Below are positions 1,350 to 47,168 of a stretch of 64,000 bases of DNA, piece by piece. A program made the position numbers and the translations under genes. The notes beneath the pieces were generated by a model that saw nothing but the letters and a program-made list of their open reading frames with translations, did no database searches and was not told where the DNA came from. The stretch is from NCBI RefSeq assembly GCF_900166655.1, contig NZ_FVZB01000007.1, positions 992,001 through 1,056,000 of the forward strand, given 5' to 3'. Source of the stretch: Halobacillus hunanensis (GTDB taxonomy: Bacteria; Bacillota; Bacilli; Bacillales; Halobacillaceae). Each line of letters opens with the position of its first letter. The stretch's first letter is position 1.

Positions 1350-1856
1350 TTACGCCCCCTGTCTTGATTGAGTTTCTCCGAGATAAAGCATGTTTTCTTT
1401 GACTTTGGTCTTGTACACCGGTAATGGTGCAGTAGGTGGTGTTCCCGGAATGTTGACACCATCTTTTGTATACCGACCGCCGTGACATGGGCAATAGAAT
1501 TGGTTAGGGTATTCCTGATTGGAAGCCCAGTCTACAGTACACCCTAAGTGCGTACAAATTGGTGAGAGTGCTACAATCTCATCATTTTCATCTCTGTACA
1601 CCCATGCAGTTTTTTGTACTTTTGACTCATACCATGCATCCACTTGTTCAACCTGCCATTCAAAACGCTGTGGTTCATTTGTAAGTTCATCAATTGGTGC
1701 TACAGAATGAAACTCTCCAGCAGCTTGCGGCGTCAATACCGGATCAATGGCAAAACGAACCATTGGCGCAAGCATTCCAGCAGCCATAAAGCCACCTACA
1801 CCAGTCAGTGTGTAGTTTAAAAATTGACGACGGGATACTCGTTTTTTATCGCTCAT
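1350..1856 (-). CDS. qcrA: Menaquinol:cytochrome c reductase Rieske iron-sulfur subunit QcrA
   Basis: Rieske [2Fe-2S] protein, 168 residues. The cluster-binding boxes are CTHLGC (Cys101, His103, Cys106) and CPCH (Cys122, Cys124, His125). An N-terminal twin-arginine motif (SRRQFLNY, residues 8-15) precedes a hydrophobic segment, so it is probably a Tat substrate anchored in the membrane. A longer reading from 1892 is possible. The ATG at 1854-1856 has a GAGGGGGG ribosome site 7 bases before it and matches the family start, so I prefer it. First gene of qcrABC, read from the promoter at 1927-1955. Confidence 0.96.
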   Translation of the reverse strand: MSDKKRVSRRQFLNYTLTGVGGFMAAGMLAPMVRFAIDPVLTPQAAGEFHSVAPIDELTNEPQRFEWQVEQVDAWYESKVQKTAWVYRDENDEIVALSPICTHLGCTVDWASNQEYPNQFYCPCHGGRYTKDGVNIPGTPPTAPLPVYKTKVKENMLYLGETQSRQGA

Positions 1857-42247: not shown

Positions 42248-43384
42248 CTATTCCTCTGCGGGAACTGGGTTCAGCCCCTTCGGTGTTTCCACCGTTTTAC
42301 TCAGTTCATATGGACCTAACTTGCCGATTGACGTGTTTTCGAATTCAACCCGATCATAACCGAAATGCTGAGCGGTCATTAAAATAGATTCTATAGCTGT
42401 CAGCATTTTTTGTTTATCAACAGACTCGGGATGATTAAGTTCGACGATGAGTTCATTGCCTTCTTCATGGGCAGATTGAACAGTCACCTCAGGTGGTAAG
42501 GGAGAATCCACTTTTGGATCCTTCTCATCTTTCTTTAACTCTTTTAATGCGGTGCTTATCGTACTCTCATTCTTGATCGATACGGGAACAAAAAAGGAAG
42601 TGTCACTTGAAGAAGGCTTAAATACTTTGAAAATGAAACTCCCCTCTTCGATAACTGACAATGAAGACAATTTTCCATAACTGCCCAGTGATACCTGTGA
42701 GCCGTCCTCCGTCTGAATGGAAATCTCCTCAACATTGTAAGGCTCCACTGACCATTTAATACTGTTAACAATTGAAGTGCTCATCGCATTTCCGCTAACC
42801 GAAAAGTTATTGGGAAAAGTCACCTGAGCCTTATCCTCGTTTTCATCAATTGAAATGGTTATATTTTCAAGAATGTTTTCTGATAAACCAAGCTGCTCTG
42901 TATTGATATTGCTTCCTTCTCGTTCATTCTTTTCAGATACAACCGTAAGAGGAACGATATGTTGAACACTCTGATCAACGGCTGCCAAAGGCTTCATATT
43001 ACTAGAAATATCCTCTACTACCATGCTTTGCAACTCATGGGCAGTAGACTCCTGATTCGTTTTTAAAGAAAGATCATTTCCGCTGCTAAAACTTTTCGAC
43101 TTTTCAAGCTTAAAATTATGCTGTTCAGCAGATTGCGGTTGATCGATTGCACCTTCCTTCACGGAATAATATGAAAAAGGGACTACTACGGCCAGAATGA
43201 GCACTGCAATGACGGAAGCTATACCAGGAAAAAGCCACCTTGGCCGTCCTGAAGAATTTTGGTTAGAGTCGTTGGTGATCAGGCGATAATAATCATCTTT
43301 ACTTTTTGTATCTTTAATTTGCGGGAGCTCATGCAGCATTTTTTCTATACGTGAATCTTGTTCATCATTATGCTTCATGCTCAC
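42248..43384 (-). CDS. rsiX: Anti-sigma-X factor RsiX
   Basis: 378 residues with one membrane helix (about 53-73). The short cytoplasmic N-terminus binds the sigma factor and the large extracytoplasmic part resembles the RsiX family, with a GerMN-like middle region (residues about 140-230). Overlaps sigX by 17 bases, the usual sigma/anti-sigma coupling. Start MSMKHN; the second Met is an alternative. Function inferred from context plus topology. Confidence 0.88.
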   Translation of the reverse strand: MSMKHNDEQDSRIEKMLHELPQIKDTKSKDDYYRLITNDSNQNSSGRPRWLFPGIASVIAVLILAVVVPFSYYSVKEGAIDQPQSAEQHNFKLEKSKSFSSGNDLSLKTNQESTAHELQSMVVEDISSNMKPLAAVDQSVQHIVPLTVVSEKNEREGSNINTEQLGLSENILENITISIDENEDKAQVTFPNNFSVSGNAMSTSIVNSIKWSVEPYNVEEISIQTEDGSQVSLGSYGKLSSLSVIEEGSFIFKVFKPSSSDTSFFVPVSIKNESTISTALKELKKDEKDPKVDSPLPPEVTVQSAHEEGNELIVELNHPESVDKQKMLTAIESILMTAQHFGYDRVEFENTSIGKLGPYELSKTVETPKGLNPVPAEE

Positions 43385-43901
43385 TATCCCCCTTTACACC
43401 TAATCGTTTCTTTAAAGCCAGCATTCCCCTATGCTGAGTAGTTTTAACCTTACTCTCCGTAAACTGCAAAATAGCTGCGGTTTCTTGTATCGTCATACTC
43501 TGTATATACCGTAAGATAATGACACTTTTTTGATCTACCGTACACTGATCTAATGCTTCGTAAACTTCTCTCATTCTGTCATTCAGTTCTGCCACTTCGT
43601 CCGGGAGGGCTTCCTCGTCCTTTATTGATTCACCTTTTTCCTCCCAGTTAAAAAAGTCCATAATTTTTTTTCTTTTACGTCCTTGCTTGCGGAAATAATC
43701 AATAGTCACATGTCTAGCTATCGAAAATAGCCATGTTTTTTCACTGCTCCTGCCATCAAATGATTGATATGATTGAAGCACTTTTATATAAACCTCCTGG
43801 GTTAAATCTTCAGCGGCTGATCGATTTTTCACCATATAATAAATAAATTGAAATAAATCTCGATGATATTTCTCGTAAAATTCATCAAAGAACGGTTTCA
43901 C
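43368..43901 (-). CDS. sigX: ECF RNA polymerase sigma factor SigX
   Basis: Sigma factor for genes that modify cell-surface charge and cationic peptide resistance in B. subtilis. I place the start at GTG 43899-43901, 8 bases after GGGAGG, giving 177 residues and an N-terminus VKPFFDEFYEKYHRDLFQF that lines up with B. subtilis SigX. The ATG at 43925 lies too close to the promoter. Region 2 AAEDLTQEVYIKVL and region 4 MTIQETAAILQFTESKVKTTQHRG are typical. In B. subtilis it lies directly after resE; here the B12 operon intervenes. Confidence 0.93.
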   Translation of the reverse strand: MKPFFDEFYEKYHRDLFQFIYYMVKNRSAAEDLTQEVYIKVLQSYQSFDGRSSEKTWLFSIARHVTIDYFRKQGRKRKKIMDFFNWEEKGESIKDEEALPDEVAELNDRMREVYEALDQCTVDQKSVIILRYIQSMTIQETAAILQFTESKVKTTQHRGMLALKKRLGVKGDSEHEA

Positions 43902-43928
43902 ACCTTGAACCTCCCGTTCATTCATATT

Positions 43929-44005: not shown

Positions 44006-44032
44006 AAAAAAGAGCTGCTAAAATCGCAGCTC
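44006..44032 (-). terminator. Terminator of the cobalamin operon
   Basis: Perfect 7-bp GC-rich stem GAGCTGC (44012-44018) with GCAGCTC (44026-44032), followed on the minus strand by TTTTTT. Confidence 0.85.
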
Positions 44033-44045
44033 AGATTTAATACCG

Positions 44046-44555
44046 TTATACACTTGTAAGCGAATGTTTCTTTTGATAACGAGAAAACAATGTTCCTAAC
44101 ACCGGAGAGAGCACAAGAATAAAAATTACGTTGCTTGCGGCATGATTTAAATCCATCGGCAAGCCAGCTAAATAATAAGCCCAAAACGGCTGTCCTGCAA
44201 CTCTCATTGTAAAAGAAATAATTAGCCCATAGACAATTCCACTTAAAAATCCGTATATTGATAGCATCCATACTGGAATGTTCGCCCAATATTTCCCAAT
44301 CAAACCTGCTCCCAGGCCAATTATAGACCAAGATAGAATTTGCCATATGGTCCAGTACCCCATACCTAGAAAAACATTAGAGAGAAATGTTGTTAAGAAA
44401 GCCATAATGACTGCTGCCAGCGGTCCTAACCAGAAGCCTGTAATAATAATAATAGCTGTAACAGGCTGTACATTTGGAATGTTCGCCATCACGAGACGTC
44501 CAGCAATTGCCATCGAAGCAAGCATTGCAAGTAACGTTAATTTATACGTATTCAT
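44046..44555 (-). CDS. ECF transporter S component, probable cobalamin binder (CbrT/CblT type)
   Basis: 169 residues, five or six membrane helices, the size and hydropathy of ECF S subunits. The helix-1 region (ALASMAIAGRLVMANIPNVQPVTAIIIITGF) and the motif near residue 31 resemble S components used for vitamins. No ATPase or EcfT gene is next to it, so it would share a general ECF module encoded elsewhere (group II arrangement). Control by a cobalamin riboswitch points to B12 or a precursor as substrate. Starts 6 bases after the lipoprotein stop. Confidence 0.8.
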   Translation of the reverse strand: MNTYKLTLLAMLASMAIAGRLVMANIPNVQPVTAIIIITGFWLGPLAAVIMAFLTTFLSNVFLGMGYWTIWQILSWSIIGLGAGLIGKYWANIPVWMLSIYGFLSGIVYGLIISFTMRVAGQPFWAYYLAGLPMDLNHAASNVIFILVLSPVLGTLFSRYQKKHSLTSV

Positions 44556-44561
44556 GAATCA

Positions 44562-44963
44562 TCATTCCCAGGATTGCAAATCAAAGACGATTTCGTCTCC
44601 CTGTTTTACTTCGTATTTATTCGCTCCAACCATTGAAGATTCCCCGTTAATGGTAAACATCCAAGCCTTTTGCTCTTCTTCGCTAGCAGTAATTCCTTTA
44701 ATTCCCGTAATAAACCCGTCTTTCTCTGCTACCTCAAAGTTGTTTTTCATCACTTCCATTAACACAGTGCCTTTTTCAACTGTTACTTCTTTGTTGGCGA
44801 GCACTTTTTCCCCTTTGTTCTTAGATAGTTCGATGTTAAGTGTTACTTGCTGTTTCTCCTCTTGGCTGGCGCTGGCTTTTTCTCCTCCACCTTCAGTTTG
44901 ACAGCCGGCGAGCACGAACACGGTCACCATTAAAGCTGCGATTAGTGCATACATCTTTCTCAT
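44562..44963 (-). CDS. DUF4430 (transcobalamin-like) lipoprotein
   Basis: 133 residues. Lipoprotein signal with lipobox VLAGC (Cys21), then a low-complexity Glu/Ser/Gly linker and a single DUF4430 domain (about 40-133): VEKGTVLMEVM, AWMFTINGESSMVGANKYEVKQGDEI. This fold is related to the beta domain of human transcobalamin and intrinsic factor, so it probably captures B12 outside the membrane and passes it to the downstream S component. First gene after the riboswitch. Confidence 0.85.
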   Translation of the reverse strand: MRKMYALIAALMVTVFVLAGCQTEGGGEKASASQEEKQQVTLNIELSKNKGEKVLANKEVTVEKGTVLMEVMKNNFEVAEKDGFITGIKGITASEEEQKAWMFTINGESSMVGANKYEVKQGDEIVFDLQSWE

Positions 44964-45055
44964 AATTACAAATCCCCCATTCTATTAATAGATACATTGC
45001 TTCAAATGCTAATCGGGGATGATGATCGACCACACGAGTCTGCCCAGATGATACT

Positions 45056-45090
45056 AAAAAAGCCTGCTCCTTTATTAGAAGAGCAGGCTT
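45056..45090 (-). terminator. Leader terminator of the cobalamin riboswitch
   Basis: Perfect 10-bp stem AAGCCTGCTC/GAGCAGGCTT (45060-45069 with 45081-45090) with a T-run on the minus strand. It lies between the aptamer and the first gene, so it is probably the switch's expression platform: B12 binding favours termination. Confidence 0.85.
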
Positions 45091-45179
45091 AAGACATACC
45101 AGTAAAGCTATGTAAAAACACTACATAAGGTTAAACCGGATATCTCAAAGGCTCAATCCCCGAAGCTTTGAAACAATCT

Positions 45180-45335
45180 ATTAAATCAGGCAGGTCTACT
45201 GACTTGTGCATCATTCTACTAAAGAGCCTTCCCACGATTATTCGCAGTGGTTTCCCTTGTTCGTCAACACTTACAGTTGCGAGGACAGTCCTGGTCTTTC
45301 ACCAGATTCCCTATTACACCATATCGGTACCTAAT
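45180..45335 (-). ncRNA. Cobalamin (adenosylcobalamin-type) riboswitch aptamer
   Basis: On the minus strand the conserved blocks occur in order: GGTGTAATAGGGAATC, TGGTGAAAGACCAGGACTG, TCCTCGCAACTGTAAG, GACGAACAAGGGAAACCACTG, CGTGGGAAGGC, and the 3' block AGTCAGTAGACCTGCC (45188-45205). This is the known cobalamin riboswitch core. It lies between the promoter at 45357-45385 and the leader terminator, and controls the lipoprotein and S-component genes. Confidence 0.95.
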
Positions 45336-45356
45336 TCTCTCATTTAATTCTATTTT

Positions 45357-45385
45357 ATCGTACAGCATGGTCAGGGTATTTTCAA
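45357..45385 (-). promoter_or_regulatory. Sigma-A promoter of the cobalamin operon
   Basis: Minus strand TTGAAA (45380-45385), 17-base spacer, TACGAT (45357-45362). The -35 begins 2 bases beyond the resE stop codon. The rest of the 44964-45386 gap is the riboswitch leader. Confidence 0.65.
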
Positions 45386-45386
45386 G

Positions 45387-47168
45387 CTATTTCTCCCCTT
45401 GTTCCAGTTCTGTTGGCAGAGTAAAGGTGAAGGTTGTTCCCTCATTCACTCTACTATGAACATGAATTGATCCTTTATGAGCCTCAATGATGTTTTTGGC
45501 AATAGCGAGTCCCAGCCCCGTTCCTTTCTTACTATTTTCCCTTTTTCTAGACTTATCTGCTTTATAAAATCGTTCAAATACAAATGGGAGATCTTCTTCA
45601 TGTATCCCCAATCCTGAATCTGTGACTTTCACGATCCATTGATCAGGTGTTCGATCGGCTATTACATCCACCGCACCGTAATCATTCGTATGCCGAATGG
45701 CGTTGTCTATTAAATTCGTTAATACCTGCTCAATGCGATCTGCATCGATATGAATGGTTCCTTGCGCGTCACTTGAATGAAGCTGAAGGTTGATCTCTCT
45801 TTCATTTGCCAACCCCTGAAACTTACGAATAATTTTTTCAAGAAACGGCATTATGTCGACTGAATCCATATAAAGAGTCATATGCCCGGCTTCCATTCGA
45901 GCGAGATCCAGCAATTCATTCACTAGCCTGCTGATACGGAGTGATTCATCGTGAATAATTTTAGCCAGCTCATTTTTATCTTCCTTCGTTTCAGCCACAT
46001 CATCCACAATTGCTTCACTGTATCCTTGTAACATAGAAATCGGAGTTCTTAGTTCATGTGAGACATTTGCAATAAAATCTTTTCTTAATTTATCCAAACG
46101 CCGCTCCTCTGTCATATCTCTCAGTACCGCTACCGCTCCCCTTATATAAGTGCGGTCATAAAGAGGGGTCATTAACATTACCCACGTCCGTCCTTGCACA
46201 GTAATTTCAGTTATCACTTCTTGCTCAGTCTCAATAACCTCATCAAATAGTTTTCGCATGGGCTGAGGCACTTCCCTTTTACCATGGGCAGGTTCTTTCC
46301 CGTCATTTTCGTATATCCAGGACTGATAAAATTGATCAGCAGGCGGGTTAGAGACTAAGATTTCTCCTTGCCTATTAATCGTAAGCACTCCATCCGCCAT
46401 AGAACGTAGAATACCAGACAATTGTTCTTTTTCTTGGTTAACAGCATTAATGTGAAACTTAAGTTCTCGTCCCATTCGATTAAAAGCCATAGCCAATTCT
46501 CCGATCTCATCATGTGTTAAAATCGGAATTTTTGTATTGAATTCCCCTCTTGCCAGTTCCAGAGCACCCTCTCGCATTTTAATTAATGGAGCGGTGATTC
46601 TTGTTGATAAGAAAAAGGCGAAAATTGTAGTCAAGATTATAGCAATTCCTGCACCGAGGAAAACAATTTTAGTTGTTTGATCAGATGTCTTTTGAATGGT
46701 ATCAAGCGATTGGTAGACAAACACTGCGCCTTCGCCATTTGAAAGGGGCGTACCCACGACCATAATCTCCAAATCTGACTGGGCAAATCCCGCCACTTTC
46801 ATCACATCTTCATTCTCTTTAATGACTGAGGATAGTTCAGGGTCACTCATAAACCAATCGTACCCTACTGCAGGCAAATCGTTCGAATTACTATCAGATG
46901 AAATAAATTCATCCGAATTGTAGGTTACAAGGACCTGGCTGGAGGGATCCTTAATTAGTTCGGCCATCGATTGAATTAACTTCTTATCATCATACTCTTG
47001 TACGACCTCTGATACTTTTGAAGCGGTTTGTAATAACTCGCGTTCAGCATCCAATACATGGTAATTTTCAAAGAACTCAAGAAGTAATACAGTGAGTATG
47101 ACTAAAACAAAACAAACGAGCAATAAAATCGTAAACCATAATTTCCCGACTACACTGCGCCAGAACAT
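45387..47168 (-). CDS. resE: Sensor histidine kinase ResE
   Basis: Signals oxygen limitation to ResD. 593 residues: membrane helices at about 11-31 and 168-188 flanking an extracytoplasmic sensor domain, HAMP (about 190-242), PAS (about 245-355), dimerisation domain with phospho-acceptor His371 in NVSHELRTP, and an ATPase domain with N (NLIDNAIRHT), G1 (DSGLGI), F and G2 (GTGLGLAI) boxes. Its ATG overlaps the resD stop by one base. Confidence 0.95.
   Translation of the reverse strand: MFWRSVVGKLWFTILLLVCFVLVILTVLLLEFFENYHVLDAERELLQTASKVSEVVQEYDDKKLIQSMAELIKDPSSQVLVTYNSDEFISSDSNSNDLPAVGYDWFMSDPELSSVIKENEDVMKVAGFAQSDLEIMVVGTPLSNGEGAVFVYQSLDTIQKTSDQTTKIVFLGAGIAIILTTIFAFFLSTRITAPLIKMREGALELARGEFNTKIPILTHDEIGELAMAFNRMGRELKFHINAVNQEKEQLSGILRSMADGVLTINRQGEILVSNPPADQFYQSWIYENDGKEPAHGKREVPQPMRKLFDEVIETEQEVITEITVQGRTWVMLMTPLYDRTYIRGAVAVLRDMTEERRLDKLRKDFIANVSHELRTPISMLQGYSEAIVDDVAETKEDKNELAKIIHDESLRISRLVNELLDLARMEAGHMTLYMDSVDIMPFLEKIIRKFQGLANEREINLQLHSSDAQGTIHIDADRIEQVLTNLIDNAIRHTNDYGAVDVIADRTPDQWIVKVTDSGLGIHEEDLPFVFERFYKADKSRKRENSKKGTGLGLAIAKNIIEAHKGSIHVHSRVNEGTTFTFTLPTELEQGEK

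Follow-up and report, generated by a model that had tools for sequence, protein, structure and literature searches.

What is taken up by the two-gene unit that lies between resE and sigX in Halobacillus hunanensis, and what controls its expression? We analyzed a window of 64,000 nucleotides (assembly GCF_900166655.1, contig NZ_FVZB01000007.1, positions 992,001 to 1,056,000 of the forward strand; positions below count from its first letter). On the minus strand, a ResE-type kinase gene is followed by a promoter-like site, a cobalamin aptamer, a terminator, the genes for a DUF4430 lipoprotein and for the S component of an energy-coupling factor (ECF) importer, a second terminator, and sigX. We consider it likely that, as a whole, this is a B12-repressed two-gene unit for corrinoid scavenging. 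An initial annotation made from the letters alone had named the promoter, the aptamer, both terminators and the two genes; all of these were found, with coordinates close to those given here, and the list below adds a hairpin and an antiterminator of the leader:

45357-45385 (-): putative sigma-A promoter, TTGAAA-17-TACGAT, 9 of 12 consensus matches, weak
45172-45349 (-): cobalamin riboswitch aptamer RF00174, 111.6 bits, E 4e-27
45142-45174 (-): conserved hairpin directly following the aptamer, GUUUCAAA...UUUGAGAC type, from alignment pairing
45138-45149 (-): proposed 5' strand of a hypothetical antiterminator, overlapping the post-aptamer hairpin, from pairing conservation
45088-45100 (-): proposed 3' strand of the hypothetical antiterminator, overlapping the opening bases of the terminator stem
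45060-45090 (-): intrinsic terminator of the leader, 12 pairs with covariation, U tail to about 45055
44562-44963 (-): open reading frame (ORF) of the DUF4430 lipoprotein, 133 aa, PF14478, lipobox Cys21, predicted transcobalamin beta-domain fold
44046-44555 (-): ORF of the ECF S component, CbrT-like, 169 aa, from Pfam and sequence homology to 6FNP
44012-44032 (-): intrinsic terminator closing the unit; relatives also show hairpins behind the S gene on inspection by eye

The cobalamin riboswitch at the head of the unit

The Rfam cobalamin model, a check that the initial annotation had itself named, matched the leader over positions 1-189 of 189 and far above the gathering cut-off of 31.5 bits. 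The aptamer is therefore whole, as had been claimed, although the span first assigned to it (45180-45335) was slightly short. Like other members of RF00174, it is complete and followed by a terminator-type expression platform, and nothing unusual was seen in the aptamer itself.

Conservation of the platform was assessed in 27 aptamer-bearing leaders, namely that of the window and those of 26 loci from relatives. Twenty of these had a good terminator and were aligned (16 distinct rows). The stem was paired in 97.4% of cells, compared to 29.7-69.3% when its arms were slid. Changes on both sides were found in 7 of the 12 pairs, and 27 cells were changed on both sides versus a mean of 8.2 in shuffles and 0-11 in the slid controls. 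The terminator stem is thus kept by compensatory change. Together with the Rfam match and the aptamers of relatives, this bears out the assignment of a cobalamin riboswitch to the unit. The leader of one locus (L038) had a poor terminator only and was left out of the alignment. In six others (L019, L020, L021, L022, L034 and L035) no terminator was found under the pattern used, so control there may differ.

Two further elements are hypothetical. The hairpin immediately after the aptamer, possibly the regulatory hairpin P13, was paired in 99.1% of 228 cells from 19 distinct rows, and in no more than 50.9% when slid. It is mostly invariant, however: shuffles paired 96.0%, and its single compensatory pair of 12 was matched by 428 of 500 shuffles. 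Its 3' strand could alternatively pair with the opening bases of the terminator stem. This proposed antiterminator was paired in 92.1% of cells, against 51.9% at most when slid and 91.0% in shuffles, with slight covariation (2 cells; one of 12 pairs compensatory, a level that 110 of 500 shuffles also attained). When 15 leaders were folded freely, no common partner for the terminator arm emerged. If these alternatives hold, plentiful adenosylcobalamin (AdoCbl) or a related corrinoid would bind the aptamer, the post-aptamer hairpin would occupy the antiterminator strand, and the terminator would stop transcription. When corrinoids are scarce, the antiterminator would capture the opening bases of the terminator, so that transcription would run on into both genes.

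The gene pair in relatives and in the wider Bacilli

A scan for the S component yielded 34 loci from Halobacillus, Thalassobacillus, Aquibacillus, Oceanobacillus, Lentibacillus, Virgibacillus, Gracilibacillus and one metagenome-assembled genome of Bacillota; some stretches end early. A DUF4430 gene lies just upstream of the S gene in all 34, of which 33 were detected by tblastn and L038 by ORF and Pfam (E 3.3e-10); the S protein of L038 shows 23% identity only and has no Pfam match. The aptamer is present in 26 of the 34 loci (14 of 14, 7 of 14 and 5 of 6 in three batches).

The initial annotation had interpreted the unit as an insertion into a conserved operon border, because resE directly precedes sigX in B. 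subtilis. A recent insertion is not supported, since position and gene pair are common to most of the relatives examined. The unit adjoins resE in 30 of the 34 loci, in several genera, and sigX follows in 22 within the stretches available (2 kb away in L033). DUF4430 occurs in 42 of 44 genomes of the family (PF14478), and the order resE-unit-sigX was also found in another family of the order (L092-L094). This order, shared across genera and families, appears to be ancestral for at least this group, and the unit is an old fixture; loss in the B. subtilis line is as possible as gain here.

Eight loci (L024 and L027-L033, from Oceanobacillus, Virgibacillus and Lentibacillus) carry the pair after resE with no cobalamin aptamer over the Rfam cut-off. 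A permissive Rfam search of six of them (all but L030 and L032) found none either. A terminator-like hairpin is retained in L024, L027, L029 and L032, and in L030 just 48 bases separate resE from DUF4430. In L034 and L035 (Gracilibacillus) and in L097, resD precedes the unit and resE was not detected.

In the class as a whole, DUF4430 was found in 104 of 299 genomes. These genome counts rest on PF14478, since our own DUF4430 profile (A1) contains the lipoprotein leader and also matched a BtuF-like lipoprotein of the H. hunanensis genome (E 7.7e-9), presumably via leader and linker. We then took 20 stretches of 7.2 kb around short DUF4430 proteins, hand-picked over families and leaving out long ones. 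An S component was detected by profile in 18 (not in L086 and L098) and was directly adjacent in 16; in L099 and L100 an ECF ATPase sequence lies between the two. The S proteins of L084, L088 and L091 had 6FNP as top PDB match (E 8.5e-12, 3.7e-30 and 6.6e-17), that of L084 without a Pfam match. In L091, genes for a B12-dependent ribonucleotide reductase, the S component, DUF4430 and an adenosyltransferase stand in a row, and L087 has an adenosyltransferase, an AdoCbl aptamer, DUF4430 and the S component. Among ten neighbour proteins scanned, the B12-related ones were these three of L091 and L087. A second set of 29 loci, overlapping the 20, separated by length: an S component lay within about 1.5 kb of 16 of 17 short DUF4430 frames (131-174 aa) and of none of 12 longer ones (199 aa or more).

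A cobalamin or AdoCbl aptamer was present in 6 of the 20 chosen loci, and a cobalamin-class aptamer in 2 of 18 scanned loci of the second set (L054 and L076). In L076 it lies just upstream of a longer DUF4430 protein (233 aa open frame). In L081-L085 (family f36) the two genes adjoin in the order S, then DUF4430, and the stretches contain no B12 aptamer; these pairs may have a different ligand.

The S component, its presumed motor and the lipoprotein

The S component matched PF12822 and PF07155 (both E 1e-7), little over the cut-offs. By sequence, its sole PDB match with E below 1 was CbrT of Lactobacillus delbrueckii (6FNP; E 1.1e-20 over 160 residues, 4-163; E 5.6e-31 with the profile). This homology to a proven B12 S component supports the CbrT-like subunit that had been annotated, which would bind B12 in the membrane. 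CbrT was established as a B12 importer in 2018, and in that account of ECF importers the S component itself is the substrate-binding protein (PMC5997447).

One could argue that the S component carries another vitamin, such as folate or riboflavin, and that the riboswitch is incidental. Fold ranking placed other S components above 6FNP, a ranking that is uninformative on the ligand; Pfam also matches the riboflavin S family, and an NCBIfam folate family gave a weak match (E 0.00096, 18.9 bits versus a cut-off of 60). This alternative conflicts with CbrT as the only PDB match of that quality, with the aptamer in 26 of 34 loci, and with the adenosyltransferase and B12-dependent reductase neighbours elsewhere. 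We regard it as extremely unlikely and rejected it on sequence (CbrT) and context (B12-gene neighbours).

Neither protein of the unit matched the Peripla_BP_2 or FecCD families, so this is not a BtuFCD-type importer. The initial annotation had proposed that the S subunit borrows a shared ECF motor. Such a motor is indeed encoded elsewhere in the genome (L040: ECF ATPase equivalog 448.1 bits versus 413, EcfT PF02361 180.5 bits), as is a second EcfA/EcfT set (L041), and one of them would drive the S component. No other S component was found by profile in 109 kb (the window and 13 other loci of the genome). The unit resembles ECF-CbrT of L. delbrueckii in its homologous S component, its separately encoded motor and its linkage to B12 genes. 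In L. delbrueckii, however, cbrT is described in an nrdJ-cbrS-cbrT-pduO cluster (PMC5997447), whereas here DUF4430 and S stand after resE under a cobalamin riboswitch.

The lipoprotein matched PF14478 clearly (E 8e-22, 77.9 bits versus a cut-off of 23.8), and the cysteine of its lipobox (LAGC) is invariant across 35 aligned sequences. Its predicted model is a beta-grasp with an additional hairpin after the helix (strands 78-81 and 84-88). Fold comparison supports the relationship to the transcobalamin beta domain that had been annotated; the model shares this fold with the beta domains of transcobalamin, intrinsic factor and haptocorrin (e.g., 4KKI, 5NP4). Unlike these carriers, it is bacterial, lipid-anchored, paired with an ECF S component, and lacks the alpha/alpha toroid of complete transcobalamin, the 133 aa holding only a beta domain after signal and linker. 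We propose that it is anchored outside the membrane, where it would catch corrinoids and either raise their concentration at the S component or hand them over.

Transcobalamin-like SLBB surface proteins of Gram-positive bacteria, whose operons carry CbiO/CbiQ-like genes, were predicted to scavenge B12 or its precursors (Burroughs et al. 2007, PMC1796856). The unit is similar to them in having a transcobalamin-like Gram-positive surface protein and in the proposed scavenging, but the available text of that paper describes neither a minimal lipoprotein that is paired with an S component of the CbrT type nor control by a riboswitch. Gut Bacteroides are described as capturing B12 with surface lipoproteins for a transporter, the role proposed here, although their transporter is the outer-membrane protein BtuB (PMC6143338, PMC10404256). 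A DUF4430 gene near rtpR has also been noted in L. rhamnosus (PMC9963975).

Alternatively, only the S component might see B12, with the lipoprotein acting as its chaperone or stabiliser or binding another surface partner. DUF4430 is common without a nearby B12 aptamer (14 of the 20 chosen loci, 16 of 18 in the second set), the missing alpha-toroid forms half of the B12 site of transcobalamin, the solved bacterial relative 3u7z is labelled a putative metal binding protein, and the Pfam name itself says 'unknown function'. Against this, the isolated human beta domain binds cyanocobalamin, the hairpin after the helix that is described as contacting the ligand (PMC1796856) is present in the predicted model, and DUF4430 is linked to B12 genes in several loci. 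We judge a non-binding lipoprotein to be unlikely.

A more specific form of corrinoid capture is conceivable but doubtful: the beta domain on its lipid anchor and the CbrT-like S component might each contribute half of a single B12 site, with the S component standing in for the alpha-toroid, as in a split transcobalamin. An ECF importer of this kind would have its own extracellular protein for capture or as a lid, a component that the available text of PMC5997447 does not describe. That CbrT imports B12 and that bacterial transcobalamin-like proteins probably scavenge it has already been published (PMC5997447, PMC1796856). What would be new is the partnership of an ECF importer with a lipoprotein that is half a transcobalamin; among the papers listed in a search outside of which most subscription papers fall, none describes a DUF4430 lipoprotein that works with an S component of the CbrT type. 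With this pair, which is kept together in many Bacilli, the scavenging prediction of 2007 could be tested directly on two small proteins. A positive outcome would assign a role to this widespread 'domain of unknown function' and would bear on the origin of animal B12 carriers.

B12 need of the host and further elements

The genome encodes the B12-dependent enzyme NrdJ (601 bits versus 400), MetH just under the cut-off (its locus is cut at one end), and an IcmF-like mutase (its locus is also cut). For salvage, two adenosyltransferases and CobS are present. CbiC was not found in the genome, while the same search was positive in 7 of 14 control genomes; judged by this one pathway gene, the corrin ring is probably not made de novo.

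Three further cobalamin aptamers were detected, one of which (L003, G000:C1:1238918-1242099) precedes genes for a BtuF-like binding protein and a FecCD permease. The binding protein scored 115 bits with the BtuF model, under the cut-off of 234, and 135 bits with PF01497; by sequence, this is likely a second B12 importer. Its presence, together with the salvage genes and missing CbiC, could mean that the DUF4430-S unit takes up a corrinoid precursor, for example cobinamide, and complements the BtuF-type system, and ECF-CbrT is indeed described as carrying cobinamide as well as B12 (PMC5997447). However, uptake of both ligands is reported for CbrT as well as for BtuF-type systems (PMC6593275), so that a split of labour is not required. 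We consider a unit dedicated to precursors quite unlikely and retain scavenging of B12 and related corrinoids.

The kinase gene upstream (45387-47168) owes its ResE name to its position; family models place it among WalK/PhoR-like kinases, below cut-off. SigX downstream (43368-43925) scored 241.8 bits versus a cut-off of 239. The weakest item of the unit is the promoter. The annotated TTGAAA/TACGAT is present, its -35 beginning 2 bases after the resE stop codon, but its score is no better than this hit-rich region gives (12 promoter-like matches versus 6.4 in shuffles, standard deviation 2.1). We kept it as plausible because in 13 of 14 Halobacillus/Thalassobacillus leaders a TTGCTA or TTGCTT box was seen by eye within about 13 bases past the resE stop. 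The top promoter-like score per leader was only 7-8 of 12 there and was not always at this box.

Of the two remaining aptamers, that of L001 (G000:C1:290525-293710; aptamer at 1501-1686 (-), 119.3 bits, with a terminator-like hairpin by eye) precedes an ORF of the thioesterase superfamily PF03061 (851-1369 (-)), which is not known as a usual member of a B12 regulon. At L002 (G000:C2:224865-228041) and L048, a cobalamin aptamer precedes the gene for the alpha subunit of a class I ribonucleotide reductase, with NrdJ encoded elsewhere; this reductase looks like a B12-repressed backup enzyme.
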